This document shows positions 33,051-45,675 of a stretch of DNA of 45,786 nucleotides, piece by piece (within the stretch, counting starts at the first letter, position 1; every line of letters starts with the position of its first letter). Under the pieces are notes generated by a model. That model was not told the DNA's origin. It saw only the letters and a program-made list of their open reading frames with translations, and did no database searches. This stretch comes from an uncultured Roseburia sp. (GTDB lineage Bacteria > Bacillota > Clostridia > Lachnospirales > Lachnospiraceae): NCBI GenBank assembly GCA_934309475.1, contig CAKRDK010000019.1, positions 1 through 45,786 of the forward strand, given 5' to 3'. The position numbers were made by a program, and so were the translations under genes.

Positions 33051-33464
33051 CTATACATATGCAATCTCATGTATCGTGACCTGTTTTTCCTTATCGATGC
33101 CAAATGCCCTTAATATCGGCTGTTCCTCGTCCTGCAAGGATAAAATCAGGTACTCTGCGTTTGGGTCGTAGGCAAGGCGCTTATCTTCCTCCGATGGTCT
33201 TGAGGGGGATTCTGGATGGGAATGGAAATTCCCGATTAACGTCAGCCCGTTTGCTCTTGCGTCTTTGACAGCGGCTAACTGTTCCCGTGGATCCATGGAA
33301 AAATGCTCCCTGCTTGCGTCGATATTAGTTAAAAGGTATACTTTTTCGATGACTTTCTGATCACCGGCAATCGTTCCGGCAAGCAGCCCGCAGGACTCGT
33401 TTGGGAGTCCGTCCCTGCAGTGCTGTAGAATCGTTTCGTAGTGCTCTTTTTTCATTGTTAACAT
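33051..33464 (-). CDS. hcyD: JAMM/MPN metalloprotease that processes the sulfur carrier (HcyD-like)
   Basis: This is a 137-aa protein. The zinc motif is HSHPESPSRPSEED (HxHx7Sx2D) near residues 80-93, and the catalytic Glu is in NESCG near residue 23. Bacterial stand-alone JAMM proteases (Mec+, HcyD) cut after the Gly-Gly of ThiS-like carriers, either to expose the terminus or to release the amino acid built on it. It is the last of seven genes, 10 nt after hcyF. The order matches the protein-thiocarboxylate homocysteine pathway described in Wolinella succinogenes. Confidence 0.85.
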   Translation of the reverse strand: MLTMKKEHYETILQHCRDGLPNESCGLLAGTIAGDQKVIEKVYLLTNIDASREHFSMDPREQLAAVKDARANGLTLIGNFHSHPESPSRPSEEDKRLAYDPNAEYLILSLQDEEQPILRAFGIDKEKQVTIHEIAYV

Positions 33465-33474
33465 AGCATGCCCC

Positions 33475-34281
33475 CTAATGTTTTAAGTCACATTCTGCCT
33501 GTTCATAATCAATTAATTCCGTGATATGCGGGTGGTCGCTGCACACGGCGCAGTTGTGGTCGAGTGGCAGTTTTACCGTGCGGAACTGCATTTTTAATGC
33601 ATCATAGGTCAGGAGTCTTCCGGTTAAAAGTTCACCCTGGCCGGTAATATATTTGACGGCTTCCATTGCCTGAAGGCTTCCGATGACACCGCCCATTGCA
33701 CCGATGACACCAGCCTGCTTACAGGTTGGAACAGCATCTTTTGGTGGCGGATCTTTGAAAATACAGCGGTAGCATGGACCTTCCCCCGGAACGTAGGTCA
33801 TAAGCTGACCCTGGAAACGGATAATTCCCGCATGGGAAAATGGTTTTTTGGCCATAACACAGGCATCATTAATCAGGAATTTTGCCGGAAAATTGTCGGT
33901 TCCGTCAATGATAAAATCGTAATCTGCAATCAGCTCCATGATGTTTTGGGATGTCACAAATGTACGGTAAGTATTGACCGTAATATCCGGATTGATGGCT
34001 TTCATGGTCTCTGCGGCTGATTTTACCTTGGCTTTTCCGATATCTGCTGTAGTATGGATAATCTGGCGCTGTAAGTTGGATAAATCCACTTCGTCGGCAT
34101 CGACGATACCGATGGTTCCGACACCTGCGGCTGCAAGATACATTGCGGCAGGGGCACCGAGTCCGCCTGCACCGATAATCAGAACTTTTGCATTTAATAA
34201 TTTTTTCTGACCCTTCACACCGATTTCTTTTAAAATGATGTGGCGGGAATAACGCTCTAACTGTTCATTGGTAAATGCCAT
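33475..34281 (-). CDS. hcyF: ThiF/MoeB-like E1 enzyme activating the sulfur carrier (HcyF-like)
   Basis: This is a 268-aa protein. It has a Rossmann ATP site GAGGLGAPAA (about 37-46), DADEVDLSNLQRQ, an Arg/Lys-rich adenylation loop, and two zinc CxxC pairs (CYRC and CAVC). The conserved Cys of PTCKQAGV lies between the pairs. It adenylates the C-terminal Gly of the carrier so that sulfide can form the thiocarboxylate. It starts in a TAATG overlap with hcyS, so the two are translationally coupled. ThiF for thiamine or MoeB is less likely, because no thiamine or molybdopterin genes are nearby. Confidence 0.85.
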   Translation of the reverse strand: MAFTNEQLERYSRHIILKEIGVKGQKKLLNAKVLIIGAGGLGAPAAMYLAAAGVGTIGIVDADEVDLSNLQRQIIHTTADIGKAKVKSAAETMKAINPDITVNTYRTFVTSQNIMELIADYDFIIDGTDNFPAKFLINDACVMAKKPFSHAGIIRFQGQLMTYVPGEGPCYRCIFKDPPPKDAVPTCKQAGVIGAMGGVIGSLQAMEAVKYITGQGELLTGRLLTYDALKMQFRTVKLPLDHNCAVCSDHPHITELIDYEQAECDLKH

Positions 34282-34490
34282 TAAAACGCACCTCCTCCCA
34301 TGAAATACAGGAATTCTACTTCATCACCTTCTTTTAAGATGGTTGCCGGGAAATTGTCTCTCTCCACAAACTCATCGTTGATGGTAACTGTTACATAGTC
34401 CGGATTATCAACGTTTTCTTTCTCGATTAAAGCCGGAAGTGTTAAACCTTCTTCATATTCCTTTTTTTTGCCTGCTACTATGATTGTCAT
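34281..34490 (-). CDS. hcyS: ThiS/MoaD-like sulfur carrier with an extended C-terminus (HcyS-like)
   Basis: This is a 69-aa beta-grasp protein (MTIIVAGKKKEYEEGLTLPALIEK, then EGDEVEFLYFMGGGAF). Classical ThiS and MoaD end exactly at Gly-Gly. Here two further residues (AF) follow GGG, so a protease must cut before activation, which explains the JAMM gene in the same operon. The thiocarboxylate form would donate sulfur to O-acetylhomoserine via MetY. It lies 25 nt after the thioredoxin gene. Confidence 0.85.
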   Translation of the reverse strand: MTIIVAGKKKEYEEGLTLPALIEKENVDNPDYVTVTINDEFVERDNFPATILKEGDEVEFLYFMGGGAF

Positions 34491-34515
34491 ATCCTTCTCT
34501 CTCTTTCTTTTTAAT

Positions 34516-34830
34516 TTAGTTGTTTGTAAGCGCTTTCATAAGTACATCCTTTGCCACGACACCGGTCAGACGGGCTGTTTCAGCACCGCCTTGAAAGACC
34601 AGAAAAGTAGGCACGGACAGTACACTGTATGTTTCTGCGAGGGATTCCTCATAATTTACATTAACTTTGTAAATTTTTGCAGTTTCTTCCGTTTCATCTT
34701 CGATATCTCCGACGACACCGGACATCATTTTACATGGGACGCAGGTGTCGGAGTAAAAGTCCACTAATACCGGCACGTCTGCTTTTAAAACAAGTTCGTC
34801 AAAATCCTGCGCTGTAATTCTTGCTGCCAT
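34516..34830 (-). CDS. Thioredoxin-like protein with a CVPC active site
   Basis: This is a 104-aa single-domain thioredoxin fold. The active site DTCVPCK has Val where canonical thioredoxins have Gly, and the cis-Pro is in SVPTF. It is placed between tusA and hcyS in the sulfur operon. A likely role is to reduce a persulfide or the sulfur-relay partners, or to supply electrons to sulfite/sulfide steps; this is inferred from context. AGGAGGGT precedes the ATG. Confidence 0.88.
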   Translation of the reverse strand: MAARITAQDFDELVLKADVPVLVDFYSDTCVPCKMMSGVVGDIEDETEETAKIYKVNVNYEESLAETYSVLSVPTFLVFQGGAETARLTGVVAKDVLMKALTNN

Positions 34831-34840
34831 ATGACCCTCC

Positions 34841-35086
34841 TTATTCTTCTACTTTCCGGACAATCAGCGTATAAGTTTCATCGCCGTTATCTTCTAATTT
34901 TAAAATCTGGTGTCCTTCCTCTTTGATACTGCGGGGCACATTCTGTACCGGTTCCCCGTTATTCATGCGGATTGCCAAAATCTGACCATCCTCTAATTCC
35001 TCCAACGCAACTTTTGCTTTCACAAATGTCACAGGGCAAACTACATCTGTAATATCTACTTTGTCATCAATTGTAAAATCAGCCAT
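34841..35086 (-). CDS. TusA/SirA-like sulfurtransferase
   Basis: This is an 81-aa protein. The N-terminal motif DVVCPVTFVKAKVALEEL is that of TusA, with the sulfur-carrying Cys at residue 17; the second Pro of CPxP is Thr. TusA-like proteins carry persulfide sulfur between enzymes. The gene overlaps the sulfite reductase gene by 8 nt, so the two are coupled. It may collect sulfide or persulfide from the reductase and hand it to HcyF/HcyS. Confidence 0.87.
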   Translation of the reverse strand: MADFTIDDKVDITDVVCPVTFVKAKVALEELEDGQILAIRMNNGEPVQNVPRSIKEEGHQILKLEDNGDETYTLIVRKVEE

Positions 35087-35942
35087 GATATGCCTCCTTT
35101 ATTTTTTCATAAAATACGTCTTTTCCGACGCGGTCAATGGTAAACTGGAAACGCTCTCCTGCTTTTGCATGTTCCTCAAAGAAGTCGATTGCGGCATCTG
35201 TCACACGATAGAGCTGTTCTTCTGATGTAATCAGAGGCAGTGGCGATTCTCCTTTGTGTATGGTATTTCCGAAAAGTCCGCCAAACGAAACGATATAAGC
35301 GGATTCGGTATTCCATGCATCGGTTGGACATGATTTTGCACAGCGTCCGCAGAAGTTACATAAATCTTCGTTGATGTTCACTTTTCCATCTGTGATAGAG
35401 ATGGCATTGGTGCGGCACGCTTTTTCACAGACGCCACAGCCAATACATTTATCTTCTACCCAGGAAATATTTAACGCACCTTTGATGCCAACGTCATTTT
35501 CCTCGGCTTTTAAACAGTTGTTCTGACATCCGGTTACACCGAACTTAAATTTGTGCGGCAGTTCTCGTCCGAAATAGCGCTGGTCGAGTTCGACGGCTAT
35601 CTTGTAGCTGTCGATATTTCCACTTGGACAAATCTGATTTCCCTGACAGGCTGTGACCGTTCTGACTCTCGGACCGCAGACACCCGGTTTGCAGTCGCCT
35701 TTCGCGAGTTCTTCTTTTACCTCATCAATATCAGCTAATTTGATAAATGGGATTTCTACGCCCTGTCGAGACGTCAGATGTACATGTCCGTCTCCGTATT
35801 TTTCAGCTACTTCTGCAATTTTTGCAAGATTTTTCGCCGTCAGTGTTCCACCCACAACCTGTAGACGAAGCGAGAAATTATCCTTCTGCTTTTGTCTCAT
35901 GAATCCACCTTTTTTCAAGGTGCTGTAATCTATTTTTGCCAT
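35079..35942 (-). CDS. Ferredoxin-type siroheme sulfite reductase, short form
   Basis: This is a 287-aa protein. The siroheme-[4Fe-4S] ligands are TACQGNQIC (C-x5-C) and GCQNNC (C-x3-C). Two ordinary [4Fe-4S] motifs follow (CIGCGVCEKAC and CNFCGRCAKSC). This compact single-subunit layout is typical of anaerobe sulfite reductase-like proteins that reduce sulfite to sulfide with ferredoxin electrons. It supplies sulfide for the HcyS route. ATG 35942 with AAAAGGAATGG upstream is preferred over the frame start at 35966. A nitrite or other siroheme substrate is possible but less consistent with the operon. Confidence 0.87.
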   Translation of the reverse strand: MAKIDYSTLKKGGFMRQKQKDNFSLRLQVVGGTLTAKNLAKIAEVAEKYGDGHVHLTSRQGVEIPFIKLADIDEVKEELAKGDCKPGVCGPRVRTVTACQGNQICPSGNIDSYKIAVELDQRYFGRELPHKFKFGVTGCQNNCLKAEENDVGIKGALNISWVEDKCIGCGVCEKACRTNAISITDGKVNINEDLCNFCGRCAKSCPTDAWNTESAYIVSFGGLFGNTIHKGESPLPLITSEEQLYRVTDAAIDFFEEHAKAGERFQFTIDRVGKDVFYEKIKEAYHG

Positions 35943-35978
35943 TTTCTTACCATTCCTTTTCCACATTTTTTGTACTTA

Positions 35979-37229
35979 TTATGATTCAGATGCTTCTGCC
36001 TGCAAAAATGCCTGGCGAAAATCTTCTTTTAAGTCTTCAATATCTTCAATTCCCACACTAACACGGATTAAATCATCATAGACCCCGGATAGGCGGCGCT
36101 CCTCTTCGCTGAGGTGTGCTGCGATTGTCGATGCGACATGAATTACAAGTGTCTTTGTATCACCGATATTAGATAAAATATACGGTACTTTCAGTGCATT
36201 GATAATGTGATATGCTTTTTCTTTACTTCCCGCGCGGAATGTTAAAATCGCACCATATTTTCCGGATAACTGCTTCGCAGCGAGTTCATGATATGGGCTA
36301 TCTTTTAATCCCGGATACTGTACGGTAACTTCCTTATTTAAACCGGACAAAAATTCTGCCAGAGCAAGTGCATTTTCACACTGCCGTTCCATTCGGAGTC
36401 CAAGTGTTTCCAAGCCAATCTGATTTAAAAAAGCATTCTGCGGAGATAAACAGGCTCCGAAGTTACGGAAAAGACCGTTTCTCAGCTTCACCACATATGC
36501 CATTGTTCCGTATTTCGCGTAAGGCTTTAAGCCTGGATATTTTTCAAAATCCCATTTGACATTTTTGCCGAGTACGAGAACGCCACTGATGGCATCACTG
36601 CTTCCGTTGATATATTTAGAAGAAGAATGTACGACGACGTCAGCGCCTAATTTCAACGGCTGTACCAGATAAGGCGTTGCCACGGTGTTATCAATGATGA
36701 GTGGCAGGTTATGCCGATGTGCCACTTCTGCGACGCCGGCGATATCTGTCACATCAAGTTTCGGATTGCCGATGGTCTCTGCAAAAACAACTTTTGTCTG
36801 TGCGGTAATCAGCGCTTCGTAGGCTTCCGGTGTATTCTCGGCCACGTAGCTGGTTGTAATTCCATAAGCTTCCAATTCCGTGAAAAGTTCTACCGTTCCA
36901 CCATACAGGCCTGCGGCTGCCACGATGTGATCTCCTGCCTGCAAAATATTCAAAAGTGCATTTGTCAGAGCCGCCATTCCGGAGGCACAGGCAACGCTTG
37001 CGATGCCGCCCTCTAACTGGGTCATTCTTTTCTCAAATGCTTCAATGGTTGGATTATTAATTCTCGTGTAGGAAAATCCCATGGCTTTGTTTGCAAAAAT
37101 CCGTTCTAAAGTCTCTGCATCCTCATGACAAAACGCACTGGATTGATAAATCGGAACCATGGTAGCTCCATGTGGATATTGATCCACCCCTGCATGTAAA
37201 AGTGCTGTGTTAAAACCATACTTTGCCAT
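35979..37229 (-). CDS. metY: O-acetylhomoserine sulfhydrylase-type PLP enzyme (MetY)
   Basis: This is a 416-aa PLP enzyme of the Cys/Met metabolism family. The PLP lysine is in HSSSKYINGSSDAISG (about 206-221). YTRINNPTIEAFEKR, ASGMAALTNALL and the cofactor-binding Asp of LIIDNTVATPYL are typical. It replaces the acetyl group of O-acetylhomoserine with sulfur. With hcyS, hcyF and hcyD downstream, the sulfur donor is likely the carrier thiocarboxylate. It is the first gene of the operon, behind its own promoter. Confidence 0.9.
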   Translation of the reverse strand: MAKYGFNTALLHAGVDQYPHGATMVPIYQSSAFCHEDAETLERIFANKAMGFSYTRINNPTIEAFEKRMTQLEGGIASVACASGMAALTNALLNILQAGDHIVAAAGLYGGTVELFTELEAYGITTSYVAENTPEAYEALITAQTKVVFAETIGNPKLDVTDIAGVAEVAHRHNLPLIIDNTVATPYLVQPLKLGADVVVHSSSKYINGSSDAISGVLVLGKNVKWDFEKYPGLKPYAKYGTMAYVVKLRNGLFRNFGACLSPQNAFLNQIGLETLGLRMERQCENALALAEFLSGLNKEVTVQYPGLKDSPYHELAAKQLSGKYGAILTFRAGSKEKAYHIINALKVPYILSNIGDTKTLVIHVASTIAAHLSEEERRLSGVYDDLIRVSVGIEDIEDLKEDFRQAFLQAEASES

Positions 37230-37262
37230 CTCATTTCCCTTCCCTTTCCAAAATCTGGATTT

Positions 37263-37291
37263 ATCATACTTCTATAAACATACTTTGTCAA
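37263..37291 (-). promoter_or_regulatory. metY operon promoter
   Basis: On the minus strand TTGACA (37291-37286) and TATGAT (37268-37263) have a 17-bp spacer. The initiation region is flanked by operator-like repeats. Confidence 0.85.
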
Positions 37292-37303
37292 TGGGTTAGT
37301 ATG
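37279..37303. promoter_or_regulatory. Operator-like inverted repeat over the metY -35
   Basis: CATACT (37279-37284) and AGTATG (37298-37303) flank the -35 box, and another AGTATG-type half-site lies nearby at the -10 (minus strand). The adjacent Rrf2 regulator is the natural candidate to bind here, in the manner of CymR on cysteine/methionine genes. Confidence 0.45.
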
Positions 37304-37408
37304 TATATATTTCCTTTTACTGGCTATAGGGAAAACCTATAAAGCGGAAAGGCAAGGGCAGTTTACAGTTTTTTTGCTGACAAATGGCACAAAATCAGGT
37401 TTGTAACA

Positions 37409-37464
37409 TAAAAAAATCCCCTTAAATAGACAAGGTAAATAACCAAAATCTACTTAAGGGGAAT
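37409..37464 (-). terminator. Terminator downstream of the Rrf2 gene
   Basis: On the minus strand ATTCCCCTTAAGTAGA pairs with TCTATTTAAGGGGAT (one mismatch), followed by seven T residues. It separates the regulator from metY. Confidence 0.85.
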
Positions 37465-37492
37465 CTATCATTGTGTATTACGGTCTGCGTAA

Positions 37493-37924
37493 TTAAATGA
37501 CATAGTTATCCGCACCGGAGTCGTCTCCCATGAGGTCTGCTACGGTAATGTTTTCAAAATAATCATCGATTAATTTCTCTAAGCCCTCCCACATCTGGAG
37601 TGTCTTGCAGGAGTCAGCACGTTCACAGGTGTTCGGCTTTTTCTCTAAGCAGGCAACCGGTGCAAAAGAACCTTCCGTTACCTTTAAAATACTTCCGATG
37701 GTATATTCTTCCGGACGGCGGACTAATTTATAACCGCCGCCTTTTCCACGTAAGGAATGTACAAAATCGTTTTTACTTAAAACAGACACGATGGATTCGA
37801 GGTACTTCTCAGAAATCTCCTGTCTGTTTGCAATATCCATAAGGGGAATGTATTCTCCGGTATTATGTTCAGCCAAATCAATTATGACGCGAATGGCATA
37901 ACGTCCCTTTGTTGAAATCTTCAT
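37493..37924 (-). CDS. Rrf2 family transcriptional regulator (CymR/IscR-like)
   Basis: This is a 143-aa protein. Residues 1-80 form the winged-helix domain (MKISTKGRYAIRVIIDLAEH, QEISEKYLESIVSVLSKNDFVHSLRGKGGGYKL). The C-terminal part holds three cysteines (C93, C99 and C106) in the region where IscR-type proteins bind an Fe-S cluster; CymR lacks a cluster. Being next to the sulfite/homocysteine operon suggests control of sulfur assimilation. Whether it senses Fe-S, O-acetylserine or another signal is unclear. AAAGGA lies before the ATG. Confidence 0.88.
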   Translation of the reverse strand: MKISTKGRYAIRVIIDLAEHNTGEYIPLMDIANRQEISEKYLESIVSVLSKNDFVHSLRGKGGGYKLVRRPEEYTIGSILKVTEGSFAPVACLEKKPNTCERADSCKTLQMWEGLEKLIDDYFENITVADLMGDDSGADNYVI

Positions 37925-40104: not shown

Positions 40105-41000
40105 ATGTATCAGGCAAAAGAAACACGATATGACCGTATGAAATACCAGCGTTGTGGCAACAGCGGTTTAATGCTGCCGGAGGTTTCATTAGGATTTTGG
40201 CATAATTTTGGGGATACCGGTGTCTATGAAAATATGCGCCAGATGGTTTTTACGGCATTTGACAATGGAATCACGCACTTTGACCTGGCAAATAACTATG
40301 GACCGGAATGTGGAAAGGTCCTTACGGCAACTGGGGCAGCCGGAAGTATCTGCTGGCAAGCTTAGACCAGAGTTTAAACCGTCTCGGCTTAGATTATGTC
40401 GATATCTTCTATCATCATCGCATGGACCCAAATACACCATTAGATGAGACGATGGGTGCGCTTGACCAGGCTGTAAAAAGCGGAAAAGCCCTGTATGCGG
40501 GAATTTCAAACTATGATGGTGAAACCATGAAGCGTGCTGCCGCTATCTTAAAAGAGCTGCATTGCCCGTTTGTCATTAACCAGAACCGCTACTCTATTTT
40601 TGACCGTACCATCGAGCAAAATGGTTTAAAGCAGGCTGCGGTGGAAGAGAAAAAAGGAATTATTGCGTTCAGTCCTTTGGCGCAGGGCATGTTGACAGAC
40701 CGTTACCTGCACGGTATTCCAAAAGACAGCCGCATCAGCACAGACGGACGTTTCCTGAAAAAAGGCCAGTTGACGGATGCAAAGCTCCAGCAAATTCAGG
40801 CGTTAAACGAGATTGCAGCGCAGCGTGGCGAGAGCCTTGCACAGATGGCATTGAAATGGGTTTTAAAAGATGACGTGGTGACGAGTGTACTGATTGGTGC
40901 ATCGAAGCCGGAACAGATTCTAGATAACATCAAAGTGATTGAGAGTGCAGGATTTTCCGAGGAAGAGCTTCGGAAGATTGATGAGATTGCAGGGATATAA
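40105..41000 (+). pseudogene. Aldo/keto reductase (YghZ/Gpr-like) inactivated by internal deletion and frameshift
   Basis: The first part (from ATG 40105: MKYQRCGNSGLMLPEVSLGFWHNFGD, HFDLANNYGP) and the second part (from about 40308: MWKGPYGNWGSRKYLLASLDQSL to IDEIAGI) are the two pieces of one AKR enzyme in different frames. Compared with E. coli YghZ, about 33 residues between NNYGP and MW.GPYG are missing. That segment holds the catalytic Lys of STKAGYD. The Asp, Tyr and His of the AKR tetrad remain. The junction is near 40300-40310. Neither half could be active alone. The rest of the second frame is undamaged, so the loss looks recent. Confidence 0.9.
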
Positions 41001-41936
41001 TTATAAATCCAGTCTCATCTGCCCATCCACCCAGCTCTCCTGCTTTGCTTCATGAATCACGTCACCCGGCAAGTGAGTTCCAAGTAAAAAAGGAGACGTC
41101 GGGTCATGCTTTTTCCGGTTTTCTTGCACCAGCCCGGCATTGGCGTTTGCGTAGCAGTATTTGCAGAGATGTCCGCAGGTATCGTATGCGCCGATATCGA
41201 CACCGAGCAGGCAGGCACATTGCCCGTTTCGCTGATTTATCTTTCTTTTTGGCACATCTAAGTGCGCATGGAGTGCCGTTTCAAAAGTGTTTACGGTCAT
41301 GCAGCCGGAACAGTCTGCGCCAAACTCAGCCAGCTCATCCCCTTCTGCGCAGGGGCGGATGGTCATTCCGTAAGTGGCGGCAATCTCTACAAATGCTTTT
41401 CCGATTGCGAGTCTGTCGTTTTTTGAAACGGCTCTCGCAGTCGGAAAATTGCGTTGCACCTTTTTGTAGATATCAAGGAAGCTGATGACACAGGTTTTGG
41501 TGTAGCCGGAAAGATTTTTTGCCATTTTTTCAAATGTGGCGATGTGCCATGCAACGGAGTGGTTCGCATCGATGAAAATCGGGTCATATCGCCATCCCAC
41601 ACTGTCCACGCCGACAAGGTTGGACAGCTTTTTGAAATCCTCCATCACAATTTCTTTGGCGGGAACATGAGGTTCCACATCCCGTCCATAAGGGGTGATG
41701 GTGACGAACCAGTACTGACCGTATGGTCTTAAAATATCCATGTGTGCAAGCATCGGCGCCGGATTTTTCGTACAAAATGCGATAAGGTCGACAAAATCAG
41801 GCGACAAACTGTATTTTGTCACCTGACTCTGATTATAGGGATTGCGCACGAGCACATAACCCTCTTTGATTCTGTTTACAAGCCATTCCGAATAAAATGC
41901 CGGAATATCGGTTCTCATTCCTGTCTGTATAATCAT
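41001..41936 (-). CDS. DUF1848 family protein with a C-terminal CX3CX2C motif
   Basis: This is a 311-aa protein. MIIQTGMRTDIPAFYSEWL and PYGQYWFVTITPYG are DUF1848 hallmarks. Cysteines cluster late in the chain: CSGC (209-212), CAC (240-242) and C254-GHL-C258-KY-C261, followed by YANAN. The last is a CX3CX2C arrangement like that of radical SAM enzymes but at the C-terminal end. An Fe-S cluster is likely; the chemistry is unknown. The gene starts 29 nt after the sirtuin stop, so it is probably the last gene of that operon. Confidence 0.85.
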   Translation of the reverse strand: MIIQTGMRTDIPAFYSEWLVNRIKEGYVLVRNPYNQSQVTKYSLSPDFVDLIAFCTKNPAPMLAHMDILRPYGQYWFVTITPYGRDVEPHVPAKEIVMEDFKKLSNLVGVDSVGWRYDPIFIDANHSVAWHIATFEKMAKNLSGYTKTCVISFLDIYKKVQRNFPTARAVSKNDRLAIGKAFVEIAATYGMTIRPCAEGDELAEFGADCSGCMTVNTFETALHAHLDVPKRKINQRNGQCACLLGVDIGAYDTCGHLCKYCYANANAGLVQENRKKHDPTSPFLLGTHLPGDVIHEAKQESWVDGQMRLDL

Positions 41937-41965
41937 AACGTTCTCCGCTCTTAGACGTAATTTTT

Positions 41966-42892
41966 TCAGATTCTGCTTTGAATATCGGAAAGCACTTCCG
42001 CGATATCGGCATTCATGCCAATGCCTTTGTCAGCAATGTCGTCCGGAACATACGCCTGTCCTTTGTTAATGCAGACATAAAAAGCATGCTGCCAGTTGTT
42101 TGCGTACTGCCAGAAGTTGTATTTTATGATACCGGGGGTGTTATAGCCGACCCCTAATTCCAGAAAAACAATCTTTTTTTGCATGTGCTGCTCCATAAAG
42201 CGTTCATAACGGTTTGCCGCTGAATGCCAGCCAGCATCTTCCACAAACGTATTGTCAGCACGAAGATTCATACTCATGGGTCTGCCGCATTTTTGGCATT
42301 TTGGGACAAGTTCTGTCGGAACAGACATCAAAATTTCGGTATTTTTCGGTTTTACCAATTTTCCGTTTTCAATCTGAAAACCCTGACTTTGCACCATTTT
42401 TTTGACGATAGCTTCATTGTCATAGGTTACAGCATGACAAGGCTTACTGCACTGAAACAGCCCATAATCGCCCTGTGTATAAAATAAACGTTCTTTTGCA
42501 AAACCGGCTTTCTGAAAGCAGTGATCCACGTTGGTTGTCAGAACAAAATAATCTTTTTCTTTTACCAAATCAAAAAGATTCTCGTAAAGTTGCTTCGGGG
42601 CATCCATATAGCGGTTTACATAAATATACCTGCTCCAATACGCCCAATGTTCTTCTAACGTTTTATAAGGATAAAATCCACCGGAATACATCTCTTCAAA
42701 GCCATATTTTTCCGCAAAATCAGAAAAATACTGCTCGAACCGCTCTCCGCTGTAAGTAAAACCTGCAGCGGTAGATAGTCCTGCGCCTGCACCAAGAACG
42801 ATGGCATCGGCGTCTTTTATTTTTTCGATTACGACTGCTACTTTATCGGAGCAGCCGTCGATAGATTTGTTCATCTTCATCTTTGAAAACAT
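41966..42892 (-). CDS. SirTM-type sirtuin, probable protein ADP-ribosyltransferase
   Basis: This is a 308-aa protein. It has the sirtuin NAD site GAGAGLS (34-40), TTNVDH (119-124) and a zinc quartet C148, C152, C199, C202. The catalytic His of deacylase sirtuins (HG) is replaced by Gln (YTQGDYG, Q140). That replacement and linkage to a macrodomain gene are the marks of class M sirtuins, which ADP-ribosylate proteins instead of deacylating them (described for Staphylococcus and Streptococcus). The start lies 50 nt inside the macrodomain gene with AAAGGTG upstream, so translation is coupled. No lipoyl-carrier target gene is nearby. Confidence 0.88.
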   Translation of the reverse strand: MFSKMKMNKSIDGCSDKVAVVIEKIKDADAIVLGAGAGLSTAAGFTYSGERFEQYFSDFAEKYGFEEMYSGGFYPYKTLEEHWAYWSRYIYVNRYMDAPKQLYENLFDLVKEKDYFVLTTNVDHCFQKAGFAKERLFYTQGDYGLFQCSKPCHAVTYDNEAIVKKMVQSQGFQIENGKLVKPKNTEILMSVPTELVPKCQKCGRPMSMNLRADNTFVEDAGWHSAANRYERFMEQHMQKKIVFLELGVGYNTPGIIKYNFWQYANNWQHAFYVCINKGQAYVPDDIADKGIGMNADIAEVLSDIQSRI

Positions 42893-43625
42893 TGAATATC
42901 ACCTTTATCTTCGAATGAAATTGTTGTTTATATGCTTTAACGGTCTGTACGGCGATTTCTGCGGCTCTTTCGTTCGGGAACATGAAAACGCCCGTTGAAA
43001 TACAGCAAAATGCTATACTTTGCACCTGATGCTCCTCCGCAATTTTCAGGCAGGATTCGTAACAGGATTTTAGTAAATTTTCGTGTGCTGCGGTTAGTTT
43101 TCCACTTACAATTGGTCCGACCGTATGAATCACATAATCGCAGGGCAGATTAAATGCCGGGGTGATTTTTGCCTGTCCGGTCGACTCTTCATGCCCTTGT
43201 TTTTGCATCATGGCAGCACAGAAATTCCGAAGCTGGATGCCGGCATAAGTATGAATACAGTTGTCAATACAATTATGACAAGGTTGGTAACATCCCGTCA
43301 TGCCGCTGTTTGCCGCATTTACGATAGCGCCAGCCTGAATCCTTGTAATATCGCCCTTCCAGAGAAAAAAATCCGGCTGGAGTTCCTCCATATCGTCTAA
43401 GGTGACTATGCCTTTTTCGGCATTAATCTGCTGTAAATATTCGTTTTGAATCTGCAAAAAATCATCATCCATAGCCGAAGCCATGCGAACATTCATCAGG
43501 GAACGCAGTAGATTTCTCTGCTCCTGTGTGCTTGAAGGAAGTGAAATATCTGCATACCGCAGCTGTTCCTGTTTTAATTTTTCGATTAAAAAAATACGTC
43601 TTTCACTTTGATTCATCGTTCTCAC
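42843..43625 (-). CDS. Zinc-type macrodomain, ADP-ribosyl hydrolase
   Basis: This is a protein of about 260 aa. A helical N-terminal part (1-85) precedes the macrodomain (GDIT 91-94, IVNAANSGM 101-109, HTVGP, STGVFMFPNERAAE). The segment GCYQPCHNCIDNCIHTYAG (111-129) carries the Cys/His set of zinc-containing macrodomains that remove ADP-ribose added by SirTM. It would reverse the reaction of the next gene's product. The GTG at 43625 overlaps the stop of the preceding gene (GTGA), with AGAGG upstream; ATG 43616 is the alternative start. Confidence 0.9.
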   Translation of the reverse strand: MRTMNQSERRIFLIEKLKQEQLRYADISLPSSTQEQRNLLRSLMNVRMASAMDDDFLQIQNEYLQQINAEKGIVTLDDMEELQPDFFLWKGDITRIQAGAIVNAANSGMTGCYQPCHNCIDNCIHTYAGIQLRNFCAAMMQKQGHEESTGQAKITPAFNLPCDYVIHTVGPIVSGKLTAAHENLLKSCYESCLKIAEEHQVQSIAFCCISTGVFMFPNERAAEIAVQTVKAYKQQFHSKIKVIFNVFKDEDEQIYRRLLR

Positions 43626-44236
43626 ACCGACCTCTTGATTGCTTTCACCGGGCAGTGTTCATAACAGTTTCCACAATGCAGGCAGTGTTCCTGTTCGATA
43701 CGGAAGGGCTCACCTTTTTCAATACATTGCTGCGGGCATTTTGTCTGGCAGACACCGCATCCGATACAGGATTCTGTTATGAAGTAGCCTTTTTCTTTTA
43801 TTTTAACATCTCCGAGGCGGTATGTCTCCCGAAAAATGGGATGGACGCCAAGATTGAAGTATTCCATCTGCGCCTCGTCAATGCAAAAAATGATGCCGAT
43901 ATCCCTGGTGTCGCCGGGATACACGTTGGCAAGATATGGCTGTTCTTCAAAAATTTTGTCTGTCCATTTTTTCTGCTCGTCCTCCGCTACGGCGTATGCT
44001 TTTCCGGAAAGACGAATCATTTCCTTATATTTCGTGTAGGCAAGTATCTGCACTCTGCCGTCTTCTAGCAGTTCCTGGCAGAAATTTTTTCCTCTTGCGG
44101 TAAAAAAATAGAGCGCATCCGATTCGTAGTGAATCGCACTGATATTTCGAATCTGTGGTGCACCGTCACGGTCTACCGTTGCAAAGGCAAGAACACCTAC
44201 GAGTTCCATTTTTTTCAAACATAACGCTAAATCCAT
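43622..44236 (-). CDS. Pyridoxamine-phosphate-oxidase-fold flavoprotein fused to a 2x[4Fe-4S] ferredoxin
   Basis: This is a 204-aa protein. Residues 1-140 form a split-barrel flavin-binding fold (VGVLAFATVDRDGAPQIRNISAIHYE, LYFFTARGKNF). Residues 150-200 hold two ferredoxin motifs, C157-x2-C160-x2-C163-x3-C167 and C185-x2-C188-x2-C191-x3-C195. It probably moves electrons between ferredoxin-level donors and a flavin substrate. It is translationally linked (GTGA) to the macrodomain gene, so it is either the target of the ADP-ribosylation module or a working partner. AGGAGG precedes the ATG. Confidence 0.88.
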   Translation of the reverse strand: MDLALCLKKMELVGVLAFATVDRDGAPQIRNISAIHYESDALYFFTARGKNFCQELLEDGRVQILAYTKYKEMIRLSGKAYAVAEDEQKKWTDKIFEEQPYLANVYPGDTRDIGIIFCIDEAQMEYFNLGVHPIFRETYRLGDVKIKEKGYFITESCIGCGVCQTKCPQQCIEKGEPFRIEQEHCLHCGNCYEHCPVKAIKRSV

Positions 44237-44296
44237 GCTGCAACCTCCTATTGTAATTAAAAATCTAAGGTATTACTTTTGCCGGAAAGATTTATT

Positions 44297-44398
44297 CTAC
44301 GATTTTAATTCTGCCCGGCTTTCTCGGCTTGCTCTGCAAATCTGTTCTTTCGTATATTTTCGAATGGAATGTCTTGCTTTGATGATATCCATTAACAT
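44297..44398 (-). pseudogene. Nitroreductase N-terminal remnant
   Basis: The frame (MLMDIIKARHSIRKYTKEQI, then non-homologous residues to a stop at 44297) begins with the typical nitroreductase start, in which the RHSIRKY segment binds FMN phosphate. After about 20 residues homology ends. A good ribosome site (GGGGAGGTG) remains, and the ATG overlaps the end of the maturase gene. The rest of the gene appears to have been deleted. The intact ancestor was evidently part of this operon. Confidence 0.65.
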
Positions 44399-45456
44399 GG
44401 TAGCACCTCCCCGGTTCTATCGTTTTTGGTCTTCCAGCACTGCGGGTCTGCTCCATAAAAGTCCCCGGCTGTGCCGTTTGCAACTGCCGGGCAGCCTCTG
44501 CACCAGGCTTTTAACTCGCATTTGCTGCATTTTACAAATTTATCGTAATCTCTATATTGCTCCATCTGGCAAATCCATACATCTGCCAGCCTGTCCTCGA
44601 ATACGTTTGCAACCTTACTGTCAGTTACTCTGCGGCATGCCATAATATCGCCGTTTGATGCAATTGTGATGTGGCAGTTTCCGCAGTTGCAGCCGCCGTA
44701 AATCATTCCGTCTTTCGCATTTTCCGGCAGGGAAAACTGCCCGGTCTCGTATTCGTAAAGCGTCCACAAATGGTCTTTTTTATTAAAATAGGTCTCGCAT
44801 CCTGCCGCTTCATATGCCTTGTATTTTGCGTCACAGATTTCTAATAAGTGCCGGTATTCCTGCGGGGTCATGCTCGTATCGACCTCGCCGCCGGTAGGCA
44901 CATAGCGGGAAAATGCAAACACCTTAACATTCGCTTTTACTACCGCGTCGATAATGTCTGGTATTTCATTCATATTTGTTTTCGATACGGTACTCATAAT
45001 GACACTTTTGATTCCTGCACGGTTCAGGCATCCGATTTTTTCAAGTGTCAGGTCAAAACTACCCGGTTTTCGAAACCAGTCATGTGTCTTTTGCATTCCA
45101 TCTAACGACATTTGATATTTCTCGCAGCCACATACTTTCAGCATCCGGCAGATTTCGTCGTTTAAATGGAAGGGATTTCCCATCAGGGTAAAGGGGATGT
45201 TTTTGCTTTTTAAAAGCACCATCAATTTCCAAAAGTCCGGATGAAGGATAGGATCTCCGCCGGTAATGTAAAAATATGGGATTCGGTTGTAAACCTTGCA
45301 AAAGTCTTCGCAGTTTACCACGACCTCCTGCATCTGTTTCCAGGTCATGCTTTTTAATTCCTTGCAGCCCTCCCCGGAAAAAATATAGCAATGTTTACAA
45401 CGCTGGTCACATTCATCTGTAATGTGCCACTGAAAAGAAAAATAATTCTGGCTCAT
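44392..45456 (-). CDS. Radical SAM/SPASM peptide maturase
   Basis: This is a 354-aa protein. The radical SAM cluster motif is C16-x3-C20-x2-C23 (DECDQRCKHCY). ITGGDPILHPDF and the TLMGNP strand follow. The C-terminal SPASM region (about 258-340) contains CNCGNC, NGDIMACRR, and CSKCELKAWCRGCP, enough for two auxiliary [4Fe-4S] clusters. Such enzymes form thioether or similar crosslinks in ribosomal peptides. The precursor gene lies 24 nt upstream. The ATG at 45456 has AAGGAGG about 9 nt before it. It is probably the CLI_3235/CcpM-type Cys-rich peptide maturase family, from memory and not checked. Confidence 0.88.
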   Translation of the reverse strand: MSQNYFSFQWHITDECDQRCKHCYIFSGEGCKELKSMTWKQMQEVVVNCEDFCKVYNRIPYFYITGGDPILHPDFWKLMVLLKSKNIPFTLMGNPFHLNDEICRMLKVCGCEKYQMSLDGMQKTHDWFRKPGSFDLTLEKIGCLNRAGIKSVIMSTVSKTNMNEIPDIIDAVVKANVKVFAFSRYVPTGGEVDTSMTPQEYRHLLEICDAKYKAYEAAGCETYFNKKDHLWTLYEYETGQFSLPENAKDGMIYGGCNCGNCHITIASNGDIMACRRVTDSKVANVFEDRLADVWICQMEQYRDYDKFVKCSKCELKAWCRGCPAVANGTAGDFYGADPQCWKTKNDRTGEVLPC

Positions 45457-45480
45457 CCTATCCAACCTCCTTCTAAACTC

Positions 45481-45675
45481 TTATTTGTCGCTAGCGCCGC
45501 AAGCAGTTCCACAAGCTGCCGGTTTCTGTTCAGGTTTGTCGCCAGCACCGCAGGCAGTTCCGCAAGCTGCCGGTTTCTGTTCAGGTTTGTCACCAGCGCC
45601 GCAAGCAGTTCCGCAAGCTGCACCTGCCTGATGTTCTTCCTTCTTGTTCCATCCAAAAATGTTTGATAATGCCAT
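45481..45675 (-). CDS. Cys-rich RiPP precursor with three core repeats
   Basis: This 64-aa peptide has a leader of about 19 residues (MALSNIFGWNKKEEHQAGA) and three units with the core ACGTACGA[G/S]DK. The first two are joined by PEQKPA linkers, giving a 17-residue period. Cysteines at 21/25, 38/42 and 55/59 form three identical C-x3-C pairs, the probable sites of crosslinking by the adjacent SPASM maturase. The start has a strong AGGAGG site. No exporter or protease gene lies inside the window. It resembles CLI_3235-type bacteriocin precursors, but the activity is unknown. Confidence 0.88.
   Translation of the reverse strand: MALSNIFGWNKKEEHQAGAACGTACGAGDKPEQKPAACGTACGAGDKPEQKPAACGTACGASDK
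45484..45618 (-). repeat. 51-bp tandem repeat encoding the precursor cores
   Basis: There are two full 51-bp units and a partial third, differing only at a few third-codon positions plus a Gly-to-Ser change in the last. Near-identity suggests recent duplication or gene conversion of the core. Confidence 0.85.

Follow-up and report, generated by a model that had tools for sequence, protein, structure and literature searches.

Which protein does a class-M sirtuin (SirTM) modify when the genes of its one known target are not found beside it? The question is posed by a gene cluster in 45,786 nucleotides of DNA from an uncultured Roseburia sp. (contig CAKRDK010000019.1, the whole stretch being called the window), where a SirTM and a zinc macrodomain protein (Zn-Macro) stand next to a fused flavin-ferredoxin protein and an ACGX system, predicted to make a ribosomally synthesized and post-translationally modified peptide (RiPP). 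In the available portions of two reports on the known operon, LplA2 lipoylates the GcvH-like protein GcvH-L, which SirTM then ADP-ribosylates, OYE and LLM flavoproteins being linked (PMC4518038), and Zn-Macro reverses the ADP-ribosylation (PMC11490716). As of 2024, GcvH-L was described there as the only known SirTM target and those of other SirTM/Zn-Macro systems as elusive (PMC11490716); the pair also occurs in independent operons, and Lachnospiraceae are among the SirTM carriers (PMC4518038). The comparisons reported here support a lipoate-free SirTM/Zn-Macro module tied to the flavin-ferredoxin protein, whose gene is the wider partner of SirTM, with the ACGX system as a frequent extension.

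The cluster and its class motifs

The cluster is transcribed from the minus strand, in the following order.

45481..45675, minus strand, ACGX-repeat peptide, putative RiPP precursor of 64 aa (TIGR04341, 80.7 bits, cut-off 28)
44392..45465, minus strand, radical SAM/SPASM maturase of the ACGX system (TIGR04340, 583.7 bits, cut-off 400; PF04055 and PF13186)
44295..44398, minus strand, nitroreductase gene remnant (tblastn)
43622..44236, minus strand, fusion of a PNPOx-like flavin domain and a 2[4Fe-4S] ferredoxin domain, 204 aa (PF01243, PF00037)
42843..43625, minus strand, zinc macrodomain (Zn-Macro), predicted ADP-ribosyl hydrolase (NF003163, 358.9 bits, cut-off 272)
41966..42892, minus strand, SirTM, class-M sirtuin, predicted NAD-dependent ADP-ribosyltransferase (match to 5a3a, 214.6 bits, 2.1e-62)
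41001..41936, minus strand, DUF1848, predicted circularly permuted radical-SAM-like protein, occasional cluster member (PF08902, 329 bits, cut-off 30.5)

A first-pass annotation of this DNA had read the last four genes correctly, including the 50-nt overlap of macrodomain and SirTM and the 29-nt gap between SirTM and DUF1848, and had missed the maturase, the peptide and the nitroreductase remnant, all upstream on the same strand. Its 4-nt GTGA overlap between the flavin gene and the macrodomain stands if the macrodomain starts at the GTG at 43625 and falls if it starts at the ATG at 43616 (codon 4); macrodomain matches in several relatives begin at this ATG, so that the start is uncertain between the two. 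Among 76 related loci with a resolved SirTM open reading frame (ORF), 18 show a macrodomain/SirTM overlap equal in size to that of the window (gap -49); they belong to a first set of 80 loci, the nearest of at least 580 and thus biased to close relatives, that served for pattern-finding and for this overlap count. Upstream of the peptide gene only about 110 bases of the window remain, and a regulator on that side may fall outside it.

The sirtuin scores 20.1 bits against the Pfam SIR2 model, under the cut-off of 24, and its best solved relative is 5a3a, a chain listed as a SIR2 family protein that we take to be the S. pyogenes SirTM structure. The glutamine already pointed out in place of the catalytic histidine is real: Q140-G141 aligns with the QG of 5a3a, QG is present in all 123 sequences compared (that of the window and 122 of the sample), and N121, Q140, G141, R211, G249, T252 and N276 are invariant throughout. 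The phosphate motif GVGx[NT]TP, described as a SirTM feature in the available text of PMC4518038, is present as GVGYNTP at 247-253, and the adjacent macrodomain gene, another feature of the class, is the one with the 50-nt overlap. The same source reports that the activity of S. pyogenes SirTM was strongly reduced by mutating Asn118, Gln137 or Arg192. The class is further marked by ADP-ribosyl transfer in the absence of deacylase activity, and the window sirtuin is predicted to be an ADP-ribosyltransferase. Approximately 20 of the 123 SirTMs have lost cysteines of the zinc site (21 have Ser in place of C148 and 20 have Asp in place of C202), which suggests a zinc-free small domain in that group.

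The Cys/His-rich segment that had been noticed in the macrodomain proved to be a Cx(4)HxC zinc loop (CYQPCHNC, residues 112-119), and NAAN lies at residue 103; the loop is present in 89 of 92 sample macrodomains and NAAN in 83, both being described as Zn-Macro features (PMC11490716, in part). Near full-length matches to 8rsi, 5kiv and 8rsl align from residue 3-4 and so take in the N-terminal extension. The flavin-ferredoxin protein matches PNPOx_N with 40.1 bits (cut-off 28.1) and Fer4 in two stretches. The peptide consists of a MALSNIFGW leader followed by CGTACG repeats with D/K/P/E spacers, and similar peptides adjoin many relatives of the maturase; two marks of an ACGX RiPP system, a TIGR04340 maturase and a TIGR04341 repeat peptide, both score above their curated cut-offs.

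Partners of SirTM and the missing lipoate genes

To follow the flavin-ferredoxin (PNPOx-Fd) gene, we surveyed 100 genomes at E <= 1e-20, which gave 31 places in 25 genomes after two pairs of pieces had been merged. SirTM lies within 3 kb of 21 of the 31, the maturase near 8 and both near 7, with maturase fragments at two further places (L321 and L333, the latter among the 21); the flanking DNA of the remaining 10 was read and holds no SirTM, some being on short contigs. Linkage to SirTM holds for nine of the ten closest homologues, and the tenth is on a 3.9-kb contig. Seen from the SirTM side, in 126 entries (a maturase lies within 6 kb of 25 of them and of none of the other 101; the former are somewhat over-represented, since all of them were fetched), a PNPOx-Fd homologue (tblastn, at least 60 bits) lies within 6 kb of 44, namely 18 of the 25 and 26 of the 101. 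Two ferredoxin motifs are present in 39 of 58 PNPOx-family neighbours. The neighbourhood comparison that the first-pass annotation proposed thus identifies the flavin/ferredoxin gene as a conserved partner. Because homologues stand beside 26 of 101 entries without ACGX, and only 7 of the 21 linked copies have a maturase match, we ruled out that PNPOx-Fd follows ACGX only; its link to SirTM is independent of ACGX, and an account in terms of SirTM and ACGX alone was rejected on the same ground, the weight moving back to the flavin partner.

The ACGX linkage was measured in 299 genomes from the family of G002, the Coprococcus comes genome that holds locus L003. The maturase (TIGR04340, E <= 1e-60) was found at 39 places in 38 genomes and SirTM (E <= 1e-20) in 149 genomes, and flanks were fetched for all 39 maturase places and for 100 further SirTM places in order of E-value. 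SirTM lies within 3.2 kb of 23 of the 39 maturase loci, on the same strand in 21, against a chance expectation of 0.21 within 5 kb. Of the 16 loci without a linked SirTM, 4 run out less than 2 kb past the maturase on its downstream side, and the other 12 extend for at least 5 kb there. Genomes with the maturase carry SirTM far more often than those without (34/38 versus 115/261; odds ratio 10.8, p = 5.6e-8, without correction for relatedness), and even in 11 of the 12 unlinked cases with ample flanks a SirTM match exists elsewhere in the genome (versus the same 115/261, p 9e-4), one of the 11 being weak (3.4e-25) and one genome, G194, having a second, linked ACGX locus. Taken together with the PNPOx-Fd linkage, these comparisons support the cluster as a functional unit. 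Many of the 80 nearest loci have the maturase a few genes upstream of SirTM, and L003 keeps the order of the window from maturase to DUF1848. At one further locus, L177, a single ACGX cluster has at least two distinct SirTM genes on its flanks, one of them divergent from the peptide gene and with its own macrodomain.

The composition of the peptides gave no clear separation of SirTM-linked from unlinked ACGX loci (19 peptides beside SirTM and 12 others; cysteine count p 0.17, paired CGxxCG p 0.046 uncorrected). Around the 101 entries without ACGX, no other cysteine-rich small ORF was convincing, several of the 12 candidates being pieces of ferredoxin proteins.

That the module is not tied to lipoate had been proposed from the window by itself. 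Canonical GcvH and LplA queries matched neither in the window nor in any examined SirTM locus, and Pfam scans of 27 window ORFs, a subset, found none; a divergent protein of the GcvH-L kind could be missed by such queries. The claim is strengthened by the 23 genomes with a SirTM-linked ACGX cluster: PF21948, the catalytic domain of LplA/LipB ligases and octanoyltransferases, was found in one (controls positive in 13 of 14) and a full-length GcvH (PF01597, E 2.4e-41) in one. PF01597 matches occur in 13 of the 23, and all except one are partial (37-67 of 122 positions, 2.8e-5 or worse), probably representing biotin carriers. The sole exception is Coprococcus comes, where GcvH and LplA lie in ordinary glycine-cleavage gene order, presumably glyA-gcvT-gcvH-gcvP-lplA-lpd by our own naming from the sequences, on a contig different from those of its two SirTM genes. 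The completeness of the 23 genomes is not given and single absences may be gaps; that all 22 are gaps is unlikely. As the related genomes are mostly without lipoate machinery, the tag probably has another target.

Other neighbours, apparent exchange and loss

A macrodomain lies within 6 kb of 103 of the 126 SirTM entries. Clustering of the neighbours of 122 SirTM loci, with each family named from one representative, gave Zn-Macro at 91, the PNPOx family at 47, HxlR at 46, Rrf2 at 24, a radical-SAM cluster at 22, nitroreductase at 20 and an NAD(P)H-binding family at 14. Redox genes and regulators are thus frequent beside SirTM. HxlR genes are on the opposite strand in 45 of 47 cases, and in 15 of 24 gene-order rows such a gene is directly upstream of the maturase or peptide position. 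Neither OYE nor LLM was found among the named cluster genes; some recurrent neighbour families lacked annotation.

In a quick tree of 123 SirTMs (49 of 120 inner branches weak), that of the window belongs to a six-member clade in which all are labelled ACGX. ACGX clusters also hold deeply divergent SirTMs. Locus L176 is 91% identical to the window in the maturase, 86% in PNPOx-Fd and 72% in Zn-Macro, and only 38% in the SirTM at the same place, as if the sirtuin had been exchanged and its slot kept. L184 holds a similar mixture, but with in-frame stops in maturase and SirTM. For ACGX against PNPOx-Fd, the tree provided too few pairs for an independent-pairs test. The nitroreductase remnant joins the first ~22-26 codons of the gene to the last 12-14, the middle being lost by an internal deletion; by tblastn it shares 86% identity with the L176 nitroreductase over residues 1-22 and 12 of 12 positions with the L179 one over residues 181-192. 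Several relatives have a nitroreductase between the maturase and PNPOx-Fd or the macrodomain.

DUF1848, which had been suggested as a further redox partner, fares poorly as a general one: it lies within 6 kb of only 4 of the 126 entries, three of them (L163, L178, L179) in the six-member clade of the window SirTM, and it was rejected as a core partner. The protein itself resembles a radical-SAM protein with a circular permutation. The motif CX3CX2C (C254, C258, C261) is invariant in 35 of 35 members but C-terminal, a putative barrel matches the later part of radical SAM barrels, and there is a second invariant four-cysteine site in the homologues and the window protein. Pfam Radical_SAM gave no match for the window protein and matches in 12 of the 35 (best E 5.8e-4), six of which scored 13.9-20.5 bits against a cut-off of 29.5. 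A Foldseek search against the PDB gave no match at E <= 0.001 and a viral structure library gave two, neither named radical SAM; no paper on DUF1848 was found in the literature searched.

Two further features of the window lie below the cluster. An aldo-keto reductase gene at 40105-41000 on the plus strand, converging on the cluster, is split in two frames (40105-40365 and 40308-41000) and is either a pseudogene or a sequencing error. At 33051-37924 on the minus strand is a sulfur-assimilation-like set comprising JAB, ThiF, thioredoxin, TusA, an NIR_SIR/Fer4 protein and an Rrf2 regulator; one protein of this set is, we assume from its sequence, an O-acetylhomoserine sulfhydrylase.

Candidate targets of the pair

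The comparisons show which families the proteins belong to, that their catalytic motifs are in place, how the genes are ordered and repeatedly linked across genomes, and that lipoylation genes are absent from 22 of the 23 genomes with the linked cluster; the activity, the substrate and the effect of the tag are inferred. Given the tagging of GcvH-L in the known operon and the redox partners found here, the tag should by analogy govern a redox carrier. We propose, giving the idea about equal chances of proving right or wrong, that a lipoate-free SirTM/Zn-Macro writer/eraser pair works with the PNPOx-ferredoxin flavoprotein, here within an ACGX (RiPP) cluster, and tags a redox carrier made by that cluster. 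SirTM would move ADP-ribose from NAD+ onto the carrier, the tag would switch it off or shield it, and Zn-Macro would take the tag off. The carrier would most likely be the PNPOx-ferredoxin protein and next the matured cysteine-rich ACGX peptide.

This arrangement resembles the extended operon of S. aureus and S. pyogenes, as far as the available text of PMC4518038 and PMC11490716 describes it, in that writer and eraser come from the same families and lie next to each other, that flavoproteins adjoin them and that there is a link to redox stress. It differs in that GcvH-L and LplA2 are present there and were not found here, that the flavoprotein beside the pair is PNPOx-ferredoxin, OYE and LLM being those of the known operons, that the window adds the ACGX peptide and maturase, and that lipoylation genes are missing in 22 of 23 related genomes. 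With the minimal SirTM/Zn-Macro operon it shares the pair without lipoate genes; the recurrent PNPOx-Fd, ACGX, nitroreductase and HxlR/Rrf2 neighbours of the window-type pair are not mentioned for the minimal operon in the same portions of PMC4518038. Compared with the ACGX system of NCBIfam (TIGR04340/TIGR04341), the maturase and repeat peptide are alike, and here they are tied to a predicted reversible ADP-ribosylation. The enzyme pair itself is known; its coupling to PNPOx-ferredoxin and the ACGX system was absent from the papers listed by the literature searches, as was, judged by title, any work on an ACGX product, and no functional study of PNPOx-ferredoxin proteins was found.

Several observations weigh against the proposal. 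SirTM is not near 12 ACGX loci with ample downstream flanks, and within 6 kb a PNPOx-Fd homologue is missing from 82 of the 126 SirTM entries and an ACGX maturase from 101, so that neither partner is obligatory. On the SirTM tree the ACGX label (25 entries) changes 15 times, at least 6 of them on well-supported branches; as none of 500 shuffles was as low (mean 23.1), the label is clustered, yet repeatedly gained or lost. L185, in the clade of the window, keeps SirTM and Zn-Macro beside a mere fragment of the maturase, and its peptide was not found. The cluster genes may also be together for shared stress regulation alone.

The last point leads to the alternative that survives best, to which we give a substantial but minority probability, namely that the target of SirTM and Zn-Macro lies elsewhere and that the genes of the cluster form a co-regulated set for electrophile or oxidative stress. 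The recurrence around SirTM of the mostly opposite-strand HxlR, of Rrf2 and of several unrelated redox proteins speaks for it, as does the finding that 75 of the 101 entries without ACGX are also without PNPOx-Fd. However, the tight spacing, the gene overlaps and a SirTM apparently replaced within its slot in L176 point to something beyond shared induction.

That the PNPOx-ferredoxin protein specifically is the SirTM substrate, as the first-pass annotation had it, is possible though on balance unlikely. Its family is the commonest linked one after the macrodomain, if barely above HxlR, 21 of 31 copies and 9 of the 10 closest homologues are SirTM-linked, and linkage is also seen to SirTMs with only 43-47% identity to that of the window. 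Gene order cannot separate a target from a partner enzyme, though, and a flavoprotein is not shown to be a target by being linked: in the S. aureus and S. pyogenes operons OYE and LLM are linked, yet GcvH-L was the only one modified among the purified operon proteins tested, according to the available text of PMC4518038. Moreover, 10 of the 31 copies are without a nearby SirTM, some of them on short contigs.

We consider it doubtful that the matured cysteine-rich ACGX peptide replaces lipoyl-GcvH-L as substrate, with PNPOx-Fd feeding electrons to the maturase or the peptide. Such a role would fit the SirTM genes within 3.2 kb of 23 of 39 maturase loci, those elsewhere in 11 of 12 genomes with unlinked loci (one match weak), and the description of Zn-Macros as the sole known hydrolases cleaving cysteine-linked ADP-ribose (PMC11490716, in part). 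It fits less well with the 101 of 126 entries that have no maturase, with linked peptides that hardly differ from unlinked ones, and with the mapped SirTM site of S. pyogenes GcvH-L, which is Asp and not Cys (same portions of PMC11490716). A fuller version, in which the peptide would be an encoded thiol carrier that SirTM ADP-ribosylates, perhaps on Cys, that Zn-Macro frees and that exchanges electrons with PNPOx-ferredoxin, is improbable; if true, a RiPP would be under the control of reversible ADP-ribosylation. In weighing these candidates, the breadth of linkage favours PNPOx-Fd, the chemistry of Cys-ADP-ribose cleavage keeps the ACGX peptide in play, and the chance of a target elsewhere is roughly that of each of these two.

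A lipoylated GcvH-like protein elsewhere in the genome of the window, as in the known operons, is very improbable as the target, given that Coprococcus comes alone of the 23 genomes has GcvH and LplA, and these in ordinary glycine-cleavage order, that 22 lack the LplA/LipB domain and 22 a full-length GcvH, and that a minimal-operon Zn-Macro failed to demodify S. pyogenes GcvH-L (PMC11490716, in part).

Together with its relatives, the locus narrows the question of what SirTM targets to a few proteins, in organisms mostly without lipoylation genes. The proposed working of the pair with the PNPOx-ferredoxin flavoprotein in an ACGX cluster also provides a first functional lead for both the ACGX peptide system and the PNPOx-ferredoxin proteins.

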